Source of the DNA: Fluviispira vulneris
GTDB lineage: Bacteria > Bdellovibrionota_B > Oligoflexia > Silvanigrellales > Silvanigrellaceae
NCBI RefSeq assembly: GCF_014281055.1
Contig: NZ_JACRSE010000005.1
Coordinates: 372,001 to 436,000 of the forward strand
Length of the DNA: 64,000 bases
Direction: 5' to 3'
The notes beneath the pieces were generated by a model. It searched no databases. It was not told the DNA's origin and worked only from the letters and a program-made list of their open reading frames with translations. The translations under genes and the position numbers were made by a program. Below are positions 38,530 to 45,902 of this stretch, one piece after another. Each line of letters starts with the position of its first letter. The stretch's first letter is position 1.

Positions 38530-41500
38530 ATGCAAAAATTTAAACTTACACCATATCAAAAAACATTTTATATTGAATGGAAATTAAATCCGAATCGTTC
38601 AGATTACCATATGATAAATGATCATAATTTAATTGGTAATATAAGTATTGATAGACTTAATAATGCTTTAAAAAAAATGGTTAATGAACTTCTCATATTT
38701 AATTCACATATTGAAGAAATTGAAAATGAATACTTTTGGATAAAAAATGAAAAGACAATTGAGTTAATATATTTTGATAATTCTTACAACATAGACGAGA
38801 TAAAAAACTTTATCGAAAAACCTTTTAACCTTGAAAATGGGCCATTATTTAGATATGGCCTATTTAAAATAAATTCATCTACACATAGATTCATTTTCGT
38901 TATACATCATGCAATAGTCGATGGCATGTCAGGACCACAAATATACAACAGCACATCAAAATACTATAATGACTTGACCTACTGCAACTGCATGAGCCTA
39001 TTTGATCAAGAAAATCGATTAAATGATGTACGTTCAAAATTAGAAGATGAGCTCGCCGCAAATAATCAATCTAATAAAATGTTCTGGGATAATATCATAA
39101 ATAATTATACGCATGTTGATACATCATTTTTAAAAGATCCTTTTTTACTTAATAATAATAGGGAAACTATAAATTCGCATGATATAAATAACATCACAAA
39201 TCAGGACATAATTGGCATTAAAGAGTTTAATTTAACAATTAAAGATGACTTATATTTCAAAATAATGTCTGCAAAGAAAAAATATATTATTACCCCATAT
39301 TTACTGTCAAAAATAATTTTTGCAATTACAATTTACAAATTTACTCGACACGAAAAATTCTTTCTTGCATACCCTGTTGCCATTAAAGAGATTCATGGAC
39401 TTGAGTATGGAGCAAATGTAAATGTAAGTTTATTTCCATTTTATATTCATGACAAAATATCTATCGAAGAGATTATTAAAAATGCAAAAGAATTTATTAA
39501 AGATCTTAAGAAAGATAATAAAAAAAACAACTATTTTCCTCTATATATGATTGATTATCCTGAAAAATATAAGCTTACTTCCGTTGGATTTACAAACGCG
39601 TTTTTACAGAAATTAAATTATTCTTTTAATGAGTTAATCAGCTTACCGAATAATCGATCAAACATTGCATTAACCCATGATTTTATATTTGAATTTGAGC
39701 ATATTAATCAGACAATTAATATAAGAGTTAATTTTAAAGAAAATATTATTTCAGAAAAATTAATTCATATTTTTTGCGAATCTTATCTTAAAATATATAA
39801 CGATGTAATAAATACAATTACAAATAAAGAACTACTAATAAAGGATAGATCTTTAAAAAAAGATACCTATTATTCCACTTCAAAAACCATTAAAGAATAT
39901 GATATTTTAACTGAAAAAGAGAGTCTAGACCTAATCCGTATTTGCAAAACTGAAAAATTTTGCACTGAACATATTATTGATATATTTGAAAGACAAGTTG
40001 ATCTAACACCTGATAATACAGCCCTAGTTATAGGCAATAAATACTTAACTTTTTCAGACCTCAATCAAATGGCTAATAAATTGGCACATTTTTTAGTTAA
40101 TAATTTCAAAATTGAAAATGAGCAAATTATTCCGATCTTTTTAGATAGAAATGATCAAATGATCATTTCTATTCTTTCTATCTTAAAAATAGGAGCAGCT
40201 TTTGTCCCCATTGATCCTGAAATTCCAAGAGAAAGGCTTTCTTTTATTTTGAAAGATCTTGAAGCAAAATTAATTTTAATTAATCATAAATACAATAATA
40301 TTTTCAATAATAAAGAAGCTATCAATGAATTTAATAATACAAAGATATTAAGTATTGATACTCTCTCTCTCCAGACTCTTCTGAGCAAGGAAAAGAAATC
40401 TAATTTATTTTATGCGTTAAAAAATGATAATTTAGCATATGTCATTTATACCTCTGGTACGACAGGAACTCCAAAAGGAGTTTTGATTGAAGCTAAAGGT
40501 GTTACAAATCTTGCAATTATACAGAAAGAATTTATTAAGAAAAATTATCAGAAAAAAATAGTTCAAGTTTTAGGATTCTCAAATTATGTGTTTGATGCCT
40601 TCATCTGGGAATTATGCTCAAGTATTTTTATAGGAAACAGTTTGCACTTAATAAATAATAACATAAGAAAAGATTTAAAGCTATTATCAGAATATATTAG
40701 CAATAAAGATATTAACTTAGCACTCCTAACGCCAGCAATATTGAACAAAGAAAATATAATTAGAATAGATTATTTATTTATTGGTGGAGATAAAATAAAT
40801 AAAAATATCCTAAAAGAATATTTAAATAATAATATTAAAGTTGTTAATGCTTATGGTCCTACCGAAAGCACTGTAATTTGCTCAACCCACTTATACAAAT
40901 ATGACAAAGAAGCAAACTGCATTGGCAGTCCAGTTGCAAATTTTAAATTTTATGTACTGGATAAAAATAAAAATTTACTTCCTATTGGTGCAATTGGTGA
41001 ACTTTTTGTAAGCGGAATTGGATTAAGCCGAGGGTATTTAAAACAAAGAGAGTTGACAGTGAACAGATTTACGCCAAATCCATTTCAAACTTATGAAGAA
41101 AAAAATCAAAATATATTCTCAAGCATATATAAAACTGGCGACCTTGTAAGAATTCTTCCAAACAATAAATTTGAATTTATTGGACGTAATGACTCACAAG
41201 TTAAAATTCGTGGCTATCGCATAGAATTAGAAGAAATAGAAAATGTTCTTTTACAATTTAAAAGAATAAAACAAGTATATATCATTGCAAAAATTAATGA
41301 AAATCTATCTCAAAAATTAATTTGCTATTATATTTCTGAAATACCATTATGCTCAGAGGAAATAATTAGTTTTCTATCCGATAAATTACCTGATTATATG
41401 ATACCATCCTACTTTGTACATCTTAATAGTTTTCCACTAAATGCAAATGGAAAATTAGATCAGAAAATGCTACCAGAATATAAAATAAAAGACATAAATA

Positions 41501-44500
41501 GTTATATTGAACCCAAAAATCCTCTTGAAAAAAAGTTGTGTGATATCTGGAGCAAAATTCTCGATTATCCTAGTGAAAATTTAGGGATTAAAGATAACTT
41601 CTTAAGTTTGGGAGGAAACAGTATTATAGCAATTAAACTCGTCAATAAAATGAACAGCGAATTGGATTTAAATATAACAATACAAGATTTATTTAAATAT
41701 AAAAACATTCATAATCTGACAAATAATTTAAATAATTTTAAAAATTACACAAAAATTAAAAAAATAAACTTTTTAAATCCTGAAGAATATTGCCTGTCTT
41801 TTGCTCAAGAAAGACTTTGGTTTATTGATAAATTAAGTGAAGGGCAGAGCAGCTATAATATTCCAATGTTTTATCGTCTACCTCAAAATTTAAATCAAGA
41901 ATCATTGAAAAAATCAATTCTTCAGATTATTGTTCGACATGAAATTTTACATACTATAATACTTGAATCAAATACAAAAATCATCTACCAAAAACCCTTG
42001 TCAATTAAAGATATAGAATTAAAAATAAATAATTATGATTGCCTAACAATGAATGAATTAGAAAATTCACTTCAGGATGAAGTAAATTATATTTTTAATT
42101 TAAGTAAAGAAATTCCTATTAGAATATCAATATTTAAATTAAAATTAAATCCAGAAATTTATGACTGCTTTATTTGTATCTGCATTCATCATATTGCATT
42201 TGATGGATGGTCGATCGGAGTCTTTTTAAAAGAATTATCTATTCATTATGATTATTTTGAAAAAATAATCTCTGAAAATGAAAAGAATAAGCTTATTCCA
42301 TCATTAGCACTACAATACAAAGATTATGCCTATTGGCAAAAAGAGTTTATAAAAAGTGAAGAAATTCAACGGCAAAAGATTTTTTGGAGAAATAAACTCG
42401 AAAATTTTGAATTACTAAATCTACATGTTGATAAAAATAGACCATTAAAGTTTGATTATAAAGGCAAAAATATATATTTTAAAATTGCCCCCGACCTTGC
42501 GAATAGTTTAATTAAACTTGCAAAAAATTTAGAAGTTTCACTTTTTAGCCTTTTCATTTCTGCATTTCATCTCTTACTCAGTTGCCTCAGCGGACAAAGA
42601 GATATCACAATCGGCTCGCCCATTTCAAATAGACACCTTCAGGAGTCTTCAGAATTAATCGGATTTTTTTCAAATCTAATTGCAATCCGAACAAAAATTG
42701 ACCCCAATATGAAGATAAGTGATTTTATAAAATCATTGGCCAGAGATGTTATAGAAATGCAGAAATATCAAGATCTACCTTTCGAAAAAATTGTTGATGA
42801 ATTGGTTTTAACGCGTGATCAGAGCAAGCATCCGATATTTCAAGTATTATTTAGTATGCAAGAATTCAATGCGAATCAAAATGAAATAGATAATTTATTT
42901 TTAGTTCCTCAAACTCAAGAGTATTTTAAAAAATTTAATCATCTCTTTTCTCCTGCCCGCTTTGATTTGAGTTTAATTATTGAACATAGCAACAATGAAT
43001 TTTTAGTGTGCTTAAATTATGCAACAAGTCTATTTCACGAAGAGACAATAAATAATTATATTAATATCTACAAGAAAATACTTCAGGAATATTCCTCTTT
43101 AAACAATAATAATCTACGTGAAAATTTCATAATTAATAATATAAACTATGCAACAATATTTCAAAATAAAATTTCAAATAAAAATTATGATTATACTCTT
43201 TCACTGGAGTATAATCATAAAACTATTCATAAAATATTTGAAGATATTGTTGAAAAATATTCTGACAATATTGCATTAGTCTGCGAACGAAACAAGCTCA
43301 CATTCTCTGAACTCAATCAAAGGGCAAACCAATTAGCGCATTATTTGCAAAAATATTTCGACATAAAACCAGAATCCTTAATAGCTCTCTGTCTAGAACG
43401 AGATGAAAATATGCTTATCAGCATTCTTGCTGTTTTAAAAGCTGGGGGAGCTTATGTGCCCATTGATCCAGATTTTCCTATAGAAAGGATAAACTTTATT
43501 TTAACCGATACAAAAGCAAATATTTTAATTACAAATATTCTTCATGAAAATATTTTTGCAAATAGAATTGATAAAAATTTGTCTAATTTTTTAAACATCA
43601 TTTATATTGATTTAGAAAAGACAGAAAAAATTTTATATACTCAAAGAAAAAACAATTTGAAAACGATCACGAAAGGCAATAATTTAGCATATGTCATCTA
43701 TACTTCAGGAACGACAGGTATTCCTAAAGGAGTGCTTATCGAGCATATTGGAGTAATAAATTTAGTAAAAACATGCTATAATATTTTTGAGCAAGAGTGC
43801 ATAGAAAAAAGACTGAATTGCCTCTGGTTTTCAAATTATGTCTTTGACATGCATATTCTCGAAATCGCATCAAGTATTTTTCAAGGACATTGCTTACATA
43901 TTGTAACAAATAAAATTCGCAAAGATTATATATTAATTTCTGAATATATTACGGATAATAAAATAAATTTAGCTATGTTGCCTTCTTCATTTCTCCAAGC
44001 AGAGCCTATTTTAAGTCTAGAAATATTATTTATAGGTGCAGAAAAAGTAAATGGTTTTATTCTTGAAAAGTACTGCAAAAGTAATATTAAAGTTATTAAC
44101 TTCTACGGTCCTACGGAAATTACTGTATGTAGCCATTTTCATAAATATAATTCATCTCTTGAAGTAAATTGGATCGGAGATACGATTGATAACTACCGAG
44201 GATATGTATTGAGCGATGATTTAAGAGTTTTACCTTTAGGTGCAATTGGTGAATTATATGTTGGTGGAATTGGTGTTGCTCGTGGATATTTAAATAGAGA
44301 TGAATTAAATGCTGTGCATTTTATTGAGAATCCATTTCAAACTGCATATGAAAAATCAATTAATTTCAACGCTCGAATTTATAAAACAGGCGATCTCGTA
44401 AGAGTCATGACAAATGGACTATATGAATTTATTGGCCGTAATGACTCACAGAAGAAAGTGAGAGGATTCCGGATTGAATTGAGTGAAATAGAGAATGCAA

Positions 44501-45729
44501 TATTAACTTTTAAAAATATTTTTCAAGTTATAGTTTTAATTAAAAGCATAAATGAAAATAATGCTATTGTCTGCTATTATGTCGCAAAAGATAAAATAAA
44601 TGAAAATAATTTATTAACATATTTAAGTCAGAAACTACCTTCATATATGATTCCTGATCTATTTTTTCAACTCGAGACACTTCCACTCCTTCCTAGCGGG
44701 AAAGTGGATAAAAATAATCTATTAAAATTAAATATTTCTCTTAAAATGGAAAAATCTCCACCACGCAATGCGATTGAATTGCAGATTTGCAAAATATTCT
44801 CAGAAATGTTTCAAATTCCAATTGCATGCATTGGCATCTACGATAACTTTTTTCAATTTGGTGGAAACAGCATACTTTCGCTTAAATTTGTCAATAATTT
44901 AAATCAAACATTTTCTGTAAAAATCAAACTTATAGATGTTTTTCTTAGCAAAAATATTGCTGAAATCGCCAAGAAAGTCTTACAATATAAACCAAGTTAC
45001 AAAGCAATTATTGAATTGAATACTGCCATTGAAATGCCATCTCTATTTATGGTTCATCCTGCACGCACTGGTTGTGAAGTCTATGTAAAATTAGCTCAAG
45101 CATTCGATAATAATTGTCATTGTTTCGGCTTAGATTCTTATAATTTATATAATGAGGAAAAAATTTCTAGTTTAAAAACATTGGCCTCATTTTACCTTGA
45201 ACATATTCTAAGAAAAATCGAACAAAAAAAAGAACAGAGTGTTAATTTATTTGGCTGGTCATTGGGAGGATATATCTGTTTAGAAATAGCGAGTCTCTTA
45301 GAAAGACAAAATGTTAAGAATATAAAAATTTTTCTTTTAGATACTTTTTATCAAGATGAGTATATGAAAAGCTTTAAACCTGACTTTGCTACATTTAAAA
45401 CGTTATATCTAAAAGAAGCTTTTAAACAAGGGCTTTACGAAAGCGATTGTCACAATGTTTTAAATATATTTTCTTTAGAAAATGAATTAATTGAACAGAA
45501 ATTAAGTACGAAATTGCATTATTCTAAAATATTCTTACTAAAGGCTATGAAAGAAAATGAATACAATCCTTCGGAACTCAATTCCTACATTCATGAATTG
45601 AAAGATAATAATATTTCTTATCTATTGACCAGTAAAGAACAATTGACCATTATTAATTCTGAAAATTATTCTCATTTAACCATTATAAATGATGAAGAAA
45701 CGATATTAAAAACGATAAATAACCTCTAA
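38530..45729 (+). CDS. Dimodular nonribosomal peptide synthetase (C-A-T-C-A-T-TE)
   Basis: The 2399-residue enzyme reads: condensation domain (HHAIVDG at 126-132), adenylation domain 1 (YTSGTTGTPKG at 640-650, NAYGPTE at 773-779), carrier (GGNS, Ser1031), condensation domain 2 (HHIAFDG at 1220-1226), adenylation domain 2 (YTSGTTG from 1724, FYGPTE at 1858-1863), carrier (Ser2114) and thioesterase (GWSLGG, Ser2244). Aligned by eye to GrsA, the pocket codes are D-A-W-L-F-G-A-V-I-K (close to a leucine code) and D-M-L-M-F-G-F-V-C-K (no match known to me). A leading condensation domain in a stand-alone enzyme suggests N-acylation of the first residue. The likely product is an acylated dipeptide (inference). 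There is no epimerisation domain, and no MbtH, phosphopantetheinyl transferase or exporter gene beside it. It is very AT-rich, like its neighbours. Confidence 0.92.
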   Translation: MQKFKLTPYQKTFYIEWKLNPNRSDYHMINDHNLIGNISIDRLNNALKKMVNELLIFNSHIEEIENEYFWIKNEKTIELIYFDNSYNIDEIKNFIEKPFNLENGPLFRYGLFKINSSTHRFIFVIHHAIVDGMSGPQIYNSTSKYYNDLTYCNCMSLFDQENRLNDVRSKLEDELAANNQSNKMFWDNIINNYTHVDTSFLKDPFLLNNNRETINSHDINNITNQDIIGIKEFNLTIKDDLYFKIMSAKKKYIITPYLLSKIIFAITIYKFTRHEKFFLAYPVAIKEIHGLEYGANVNVSLFPFYIHDKISIEEIIKNAKEFIKDLKKDNKKNNYFPLYMIDYPEKYKLTSVGFTNAFLQKLNYSFNELISLPNNRSNIALTHDFIFEFEHINQTINIRVNFKENIISEKLIHIFCESYLKIYNDVINTITNKELLIKDRSLKKDTYYSTSKTIKEYDILTEKESLDLIRICKTEKFCTEHIIDIFERQVDLTPDNTALVIGNKYLTFSDLNQMANKLAHFLVNNFKIENEQIIPIFLDRNDQMIISILSILKIGAAFVPIDPEIPRERLSFILKDLEAKLILINHKYNNIFNNKEAINEFNNTKILSIDTLSLQTLLSKEKKSNLFYALKNDNLAYVIYTSGTTGTPKGVLIEAKGVTNLAIIQKEFIKKNYQKKIVQVLGFSNYVFDAFIWELCSSIFIGNSLHLINNNIRKDLKLLSEYISNKDINLALLTPAILNKENIIRIDYLFIGGDKINKNILKEYLNNNIKVVNAYGPTESTVICSTHLYKYDKEANCIGSPVANFKFYVLDKNKNLLPIGAIGELFVSGIGLSRGYLKQRELTVNRFTPNPFQTYEEKNQNIFSSIYKTGDLVRILPNNKFEFIGRNDSQVKIRGYRIELEEIENVLLQFKRIKQVYIIAKINENLSQKLICYYISEIPLCSEEIISFLSDKLPDYMIPSYFVHLNSFPLNANGKLDQKMLPEYKIKDINSYIEPKNPLEKKLCDIWSKILDYPSENLGIKDNFLSLGGNSIIAIKLVNKMNSELDLNITIQDLFKYKNIHNLTNNLNNFKNYTKIKKINFLNPEEYCLSFAQERLWFIDKLSEGQSSYNIPMFYRLPQNLNQESLKKSILQIIVRHEILHTIILESNTKIIYQKPLSIKDIELKINNYDCLTMNELENSLQDEVNYIFNLSKEIPIRISIFKLKLNPEIYDCFICICIHHIAFDGWSIGVFLKELSIHYDYFEKIISENEKNKLIPSLALQYKDYAYWQKEFIKSEEIQRQKIFWRNKLENFELLNLHVDKNRPLKFDYKGKNIYFKIAPDLANSLIKLAKNLEVSLFSLFISAFHLLLSCLSGQRDITIGSPISNRHLQESSELIGFFSNLIAIRTKIDPNMKISDFIKSLARDVIEMQKYQDLPFEKIVDELVLTRDQSKHPIFQVLFSMQEFNANQNEIDNLFLVPQTQEYFKKFNHLFSPARFDLSLIIEHSNNEFLVCLNYATSLFHEETINNYINIYKKILQEYSSLNNNNLRENFIINNINYATIFQNKISNKNYDYTLSLEYNHKTIHKIFEDIVEKYSDNIALVCERNKLTFSELNQRANQLAHYLQKYFDIKPESLIALCLERDENMLISILAVLKAGGAYVPIDPDFPIERINFILTDTKANILITNILHENIFANRIDKNLSNFLNIIYIDLEKTEKILYTQRKNNLKTITKGNNLAYVIYTSGTTGIPKGVLIEHIGVINLVKTCYNIFEQECIEKRLNCLWFSNYVFDMHILEIASSIFQGHCLHIVTNKIRKDYILISEYITDNKINLAMLPSSFLQAEPILSLEILFIGAEKVNGFILEKYCKSNIKVINFYGPTEITVCSHFHKYNSSLEVNWIGDTIDNYRGYVLSDDLRVLPLGAIGELYVGGIGVARGYLNRDELNAVHFIENPFQTAYEKSINFNARIYKTGDLVRVMTNGLYEFIGRNDSQKKVRGFRIELSEIENAILTFKNIFQVIVLIKSINENNAIVCYYVAKDKINENNLLTYLSQKLPSYMIPDLFFQLETLPLLPSGKVDKNNLLKLNISLKMEKSPPRNAIELQICKIFSEMFQIPIACIGIYDNFFQFGGNSILSLKFVNNLNQTFSVKIKLIDVFLSKNIAEIAKKVLQYKPSYKAIIELNTAIEMPSLFMVHPARTGCEVYVKLAQAFDNNCHCFGLDSYNLYNEEKISSLKTLASFYLEHILRKIEQKKEQSVNLFGWSLGGYICLEIASLLERQNVKNIKIFLLDTFYQDEYMKSFKPDFATFKTLYLKEAFKQGLYESDCHNVLNIFSLENELIEQKLSTKLHYSKIFLLKAMKENEYNPSELNSYIHELKDNNISYLLTSKEQLTIINSENYSHLTIINDEETILKTINNL

Positions 45730-45825: not shown

Positions 45826-45902
45826 ATGCGAGATTTTACAAAAAAAATATTAAATTATTCATAATTTCAAGATATCTTGCTGCCCTCATAATTATTGCCA
45901 TA
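45826..45902 (+). other. Out-of-frame N-terminal segment of the SpoIIE-type gene, with A8 tract
   Basis: The reading frame of the gene beginning at 45903 stays open upstream to a stop at 45813 and encodes FYKKNIKLFIISRYLAALII, a plausible first membrane helix. It contains no ATG, GTG or TTG. An ATG at 45826 lies just after AAGAGG but is in another frame and stops after 12 codons. Eight consecutive A residues (45840-45847) separate the two: nine would join them into one frame starting MRDFTKKNIKL. This could be slippage, a recent mutation or a base-count error. Confidence 0.65.

Follow-up and report, generated by a model that had tools for sequence, protein, structure and literature searches.

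A stand-alone dimodular peptide synthetase with a divergent N-terminal condensation domain and a predicted acyl dipeptide product

The described systems closest to the synthetase reported here are those that begin with an initiating C-A-T module, namely RzmA (rhizomide), HolA (holrhizin) and CDA PS1, together with AusA, the aureusimine synthetase. In RzmA, position 148 (R148) is a gate for acyl length, and a small residue there lets longer acyl chains in (PMC7804268). The NRPS encoded in the window—the whole stretch of 64,000 nucleotides analyzed here—resembles RzmA, HolA and CDA PS1 in having a C-A-T module in initiating position, headed by an N-terminal C domain with HHxxxDG and an identifiable gate residue, which is Gly where RzmA has R148. 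It differs from them in that its first condensation domain (C1) lies outside the starter clade of RzmA, CDA, Caballeronia and Paenibacillus, in having two modules only, and in the absence of tailoring, export and MbtH genes. With AusA, it shares a stand-alone, dimodular organization with few accessory genes, and among NCBIfam models it is AusA that scored highest, over the A-T-C-A-T core common to both. AusA is A-T-C-A-T-R, with no leading C and with a reductase where the window NRPS has a thioesterase (TE). Identification of the window NRPS as AusA was rejected on these grounds, a TE instead of R and a score of 1006.8 against a cutoff of 2500.

Outside the genus, the closest relative of C1 that was found (24.6% identity over 90%) heads a 3360-aa NRPS on a Providencia rettgeri plasmid (L057, NZ_CP082352). 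This is likewise a single gene, C-A-T-C-A-T-C-A-T-TE, but unlike the window gene it has three modules, is plasmid borne, carries other pocket codes and is followed directly downstream by an Sfp-type PPTase. An N-terminal C domain of the same clade is also found in a stand-alone C-A-T-reductase with the Leu-like code DAWLLGAVSK, encoded on plasmid pQT6929 of a Cysteiniphilum isolate from human pus (L058:9001-13515). A contig scan gave a weak Clostridium hit as its sole match (L009, 23%).

On balance, we consider it probable from its sequence that the window gene encodes a self-contained dimodular NRPS making a small N-acyl dipeptide, which would be new chemistry of modest size. No product of a Silvanigrellaceae synthetase was found in the open literature searched (under the family and related names), and a search for a known cluster with an assigned product to which the gene might belong returned none. 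This is ordinary machinery in an unusual family, and the point of general interest is the clade of N-terminal C domains outside the canonical starters.

Gene, domains and predicted product

The gene has an ATG start with GGAG 7 nt upstream and encodes a protein in which Pfam recognizes two Condensation, two AMP-binding and two PP-binding domains and one Thioesterase domain. Its features, with amino acid bounds from custom profiles, are as follows.

38530..45729, + strand: NRPS gene, C-A-T-C-A-T-TE, 2399 aa (ORF, Pfam, custom profiles)
38542..39813, + strand: C1 (aa 5-428), divergent N-terminal-only clade, HHAIVDG (aa 126) at 38905-38925 (profiles, trees)
38563..38565, + strand: Thr12 of C1, at the position occupied by Arg in LCL and by Gly in DCL domains (alignment)
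38932..38934, + strand: Gly135 of C1, aligned with the RzmA R148 acyl-length gate of PMC7804268 (alignment)
39988..41454, + strand: A1 (aa 487-975), code DAWLFGAVIK, probably Leu-like hydrophobic (profiles, column extraction)
41281..41331, + strand: putative recombination breakpoint region (aa 918-934), module-1-like before and module-2-like after (segment homology, site counts)
41536..41718, + strand: T1 carrier domain (aa 1003-1063), LGGNS (profiles, motif)
41794..43098, + strand: C2 (aa 1089-1523), LCL, HHIAFDG (aa 1220) at 42187-42207, Arg1095; equivalent to the C of module 3 in the 4413-aa and 3934-aa paralogues (tree, marker)
43240..44703, + strand: A2 (aa 1571-2058), code DMLMFGFVCK, predicted hydrophobic, without a near equivalent among the codes compared (profiles, column extraction)
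44785..44967, + strand: T2 carrier domain (aa 2086-2146), FGGNS (profiles, motif)
44995..45723, + strand: type I thioesterase (aa 2156-2398), Ser in GWSLGG at 45253-45270, candidate Asp2271 and His2382 (Pfam, profiles, motif)

The catalytic motifs are intact in both condensation domains, in both A domains (YTSGTTGxPKG, YGPTE, RGY/FRIE and the K of GKLD/GKVD, each twice) and in both carriers (GGNS), and the candidate triad of the TE is complete. A 2399-codon frame holding all these motifs at about 27% GC is no product of chance, and the repeated C, A, T order, intact motifs and terminal TE are those of a type I modular NRPS. The original prediction of a stand-alone dimodular C-A-T-C-A-T-TE synthetase is thus confirmed by ORF, Pfam, profiles and motifs alike, and column extraction returned the same two pocket codes.

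The A1 code is identical in eight of ten positions to DAWLYGAVMK, the Leu code of the Stachelhaus/Challis tables; the match is a lead rather than a test. The Leu-like first pocket that had been proposed is upheld to that extent, and the A1 pocket is probably hydrophobic and Leu-like. The A2 pocket also appears hydrophobic, its substrate being unrecognizable from the code. Papers reporting either code or near variants were not found in the literature searched. A1 is nearest to the first-module A of the synthetases of congeners G007 and G004 (support 95). C2 is LCL by clade and by marker and groups at 100/100 with the C domains of module 3 in the 4413-aa and 3934-aa synthetases of the same genome; A2 groups with the third-module A of the same two proteins (support 86), as does the TE with their TE.

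The product is best read as an acid, acyl-L-(Leu-like)-X, that the TE sets free. A genome-encoded Sfp-type PPTase would prime T1 and T2, and A1 would load an L-Leu-like amino acid onto T1, as its re-extracted code suggests. C1 would then acylate the amino group of this residue with an acyl group supplied from outside, the simplest source being a medium- or long-chain fatty acyl-CoA, since nothing encoded upstream can feed C1. A2 would load a second hydrophobic residue onto T2, and C2, LCL by sequence in a protein with no epimerization domain, would join the acyl-L-aminoacyl unit to this second L-residue. The TE would release the chain as acyl-L-aa1-L-aa2-OH, most likely by hydrolysis, a choice over other release routes that we only infer because its similarity to solved TEs is weak. 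Of the small lipopeptide or acyl dipeptide first proposed, the acyl dipeptide stands as the most economical product, its lipid character and second residue being putative.

The first condensation domain and its donor

We placed C1 in three trees, one of 99 rows, one of 44 rows under a mixture model and one of 48 rows with a Paenibacillus lipopeptide-type starter added, using typed reference C domains from plasmid NRPSs and PDB alignments (SrfA-C and TycC C6 alone are poor references). Starters were represented by lipopeptide synthetases rather than by the E. coli colibactin island. In all three, its clade consists of protein-N-terminal C domains only: the genus heads, the head of a PKS-containing cluster of the host genome (L043), a 1013-aa C-A-T protein of congener G002, and the Providencia rettgeri and Cysteiniphilum plasmid NRPSs. 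The 44-row tree joins ten N-terminal-only domains in one clade at 97/93, with a core of seven at 100/98, and puts C1 nearest to the first module of the G007 and G004 synthetases (99/94). The canonical starters (RzmA, CDA, Caballeronia, Skermanella and Paenibacillus) form another clade, from which C1 is separated with a support of 97/93 in the 44-row tree and 96 in the 48-row tree. The AU test allows the C1 clade as sister to the canonical starters (p 0.28) or to LCL domains (p 0.29) evenly, its deep placement being uncertain because the branches are long; the exclusively N-terminal make-up of the clade is the firm part.

Residue markers add to this picture. In one column, Arg is found in 15 of 16 LCL and Gly in all six DCL domains of the reference set, and the six C domains of the family that have an E in front of them likewise all carry Gly. 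C2 has Arg1095 in this column, whereas C1 has Thr12 and so neither elongation marker. A selectivity arginine of C domains is described in a review (PMC11546977), and, judging by its behavior, our column may correspond to it. The catalytic His127 and Asp131 of C1 are invariant in nine heads, including the Providencia plasmid protein. The residue aligned with RzmA R148 is Gly135 in C1 and Thr, Leu or Ala in its relatives, which is suggestive of room for a long chain.

C1 is the first domain of its initiation module, with no module upstream, and is N-terminal in all its clade relatives. In G004, a genome 96% complete, all C domains found belong to the C1-headed synthetase, so there C1 cannot depend on an upstream NRPS. 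The clade also includes single-module C-A-T-reductase proteins (L052 and that of Cysteiniphilum), whose architecture would fit an acyl donor for C1. The N-terminal-only clade, the marker column, the invariant catalytic pair, Gly135, G004 and these single-module relatives are together best explained by initiation with an acyl group from an external donor: the initiating role of C1 is well supported, and an acyl donor is most likely judging by its sequence. The leading C domain had in effect been taken for a starter, and this holds as regards initiation, which the N-terminal-only clade and G004 make very likely, but not as regards membership of the canonical starter (lipoinitiation) clade; two points tell against acyl-CoA as the donor, namely that C1, falling outside that clade, has no characterized relative that shows its use, and that genes for acyl activation do not adjoin the window NRPS. 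Should initiation with an acyl donor be borne out for a C domain outside the canonical clade, a lineage of lipo-initiating synthetases would escape current starter-C profiles.

The main rival, which we regard as unlikely, is that C1 initiates with something other than a free fatty acyl-CoA, be it a polyketide, some other acid or a group delivered by an acyl- or aryl-carrier protein, giving an N-capped dipeptide and no lipopeptide. It draws on the position of C1 outside the canonical acyl-CoA starters, with closest relatives that are uncharacterized, and on a gene resembling type III PKSs that precedes the 4413-aa paralogue in this genome; but that gene was not seen in the shorter stretch compared upstream of the G005 orthologue, the window NRPS has neither a PKS nor a FAAL nor a free carrier gene beside it, and the Gly at the gate agrees with a long chain. 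Quite improbable is a vestigial C1 in an enzyme making a free dipeptide or diketopiperazine. Such decay might be read from the divergence of C1 (87 bits against about 299 for C2 with Pfam Condensation) and from the lack of the usual RHExLRT core motif, yet we mark it down because the catalytic residues are invariant, and the domain is kept whole at the N terminus of eight genus synthetases. AlphaFold modeling of C1 alone gave no usable fold (pLDDT of 32.5, pTM of 0.21). Least probable of all is a dispersed assembly line in which another NRPS hands a peptidyl or aminoacyl chain to C1 in trans, for although no TE was found at the end of the last protein of the L043 cluster (N-terminal C-A-T, PKS, C-A-T-C-A-T), this cluster is also present in G005, where the window gene has no orthologue, neither marker of elongation domains is found in C1, and the G004 synthetase holds the only C domains found there.

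A genus family and the probable origin of the gene

The window NRPS is one of a genus-specific family of single-gene synthetases that had not been described before. In six of eight genus genomes, single-gene NRPSs are headed by this divergent C domain, eight proteins with our own included, each continuing directly with A-T and ending in a TE or a reductase; in a search of 58 genomes of one class, none of the other 29 genera yielded a head of this kind (E 1e-20). Relatives that bear on the window gene are listed here.

L042, same genome: 3934-aa paralogue, C-A-T-E-C-A-T-C-A-T-TE
L041, same genome: 4413-aa paralogue, C-A-T-E-C-A-T-C-A-T, then E before TE
L050 and L049: congener synthetases of 2829 aa and 2787 aa, C-A-T-E-C-A-T-TE
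L052: 1481-aa congener synthetase, C-A-T-reductase
L047: 3406-aa synthetase of congener G006

Like the window NRPS, these have a head of the N-terminal C clade, a single-gene locus and a TE or reductase end, and the neighbors of those examined are mostly housekeeping genes. The C2 and A2 of the window protein match their third module. Unlike the TE-ending members, it is without the E-DCL-A-T block after module 1, and its pocket codes differ. The family thus forms a natural series of one, two and three modules under one head.

Segment homology points to a trimodular C-A-T-E-C-A-T-C-A-T-TE relative as the ancestor of the gene, E-C-A having been lost through a deletion running from one A domain to another. 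From aa ~925 through T1 the protein is nearer to module 2 of the trimodular relatives, and its T1-C2 junction matches their module 2-3 junction. Site counts put the best switch from module 1 to module 2 at aa 918-925, with a modest excess over aa 931-1075 (26 module-2-only against 12 module-1-only sites). A breakpoint permutation test gave 0/5000, an inflated result because much of the signal comes from the divergent module-2 A core. On moderate evidence, in-frame unequal recombination between the A of module 1 and the A of module 2, removing T1-E-C-A2core, would be the simplest account. It would be functionally coherent because the C2 that was kept is LCL and, with E gone, its donor is an L-residue. 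An apparent natural deletion near the A8 region bears directly on the choice of points at which NRPSs may be split and fused. The window NRPS goes beyond what was first noted of it, being one member of a genus-wide family and apparently a shortened trimodular synthetase. A more ambitious proposal, which we put forward only tentatively and rather doubt, is twofold: that the C1 clade (genus plus Providencia/Cysteiniphilum plasmids) represents a separate and so far undescribed class of initiating C domains, which use a donor, or a way of binding it, of their own, and that in the window gene nature has deleted modules from a trimodular synthetase in one step, by A-to-A recombination, and left it functional.

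Several details of the relatives may be recorded. Upstream of the 4413-aa synthetase lie a methyltransferase gene and the type III PKS (chalcone synthase-like) gene (L041:1215-3472). The third module of the 3406-aa synthetase (L047:3250-13470) has C and T without A; the next gene (L047:13460-16285) encodes a 941-aa C-A protein whose C has lost HHxxxDG (NNLILD) and whose A may act in trans. The L043 cluster (L043:2726-17676; conserved in G005 as L045) comprises C-A-T, a KS-AT-KR-ACP PKS and C-A-T-C-A-T, the last protein having about 250 extra residues inside its second A domain. In G007, a 714-aa ORF (L068:6086-8227, minus strand) adjoining a leucyl aminopeptidase gene has a partial C, T and C without A and looks like a decaying NRPS.

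Genomic setting

The genes around the window NRPS are housekeeping or regulatory by Pfam, its neighbors encoding a glyoxalase-like YycE protein, an SLT lytic transglycosylase with SBP_bac_3, a SpoIIE/PilJ phosphatase and an aldehyde dehydrogenase. In agreement with what had been noted, Pfam analysis of the adjoining genes revealed no tailoring, export, MbtH or PPTase gene. The 3.60-Mb host genome encodes other NRPSs of 4413, 3934 and 2442 aa and, elsewhere, one Sfp-sized (262 aa) and one AcpS-sized (135 aa) PPTase. A GC-rich stretch at 12-18 kb, considered as a foreign island, was rejected, as infB, nusA and truB lie inside it.

The seven other genus genomes have no orthologue of the window NRPS. 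In G005, pcnB-spoU-SLT is separated from aldehyde dehydrogenase-kamA by ~1 kb, in which lie a cold-shock gene and part of a transporter; the NRPS, SpoIIE/PilJ and YycE-like genes are absent, and tblastn found no remnant. G006 and G003 have the conserved flanks with no NRPS between them. The NRPS site is a variable spacer between conserved blocks, and either the host genome gained the gene or the others lost it. For the SpoIIE/PilJ gene, listed from 45903, a start further upstream is probable, an ATG at 45826 giving MRDFTKK; the in-frame continuation with a membrane segment (NIKLFIISRYLAALIIIAI) is one frame off after an A-run near 45839-45847, where the break is either a sequencing indel or a real frameshift.
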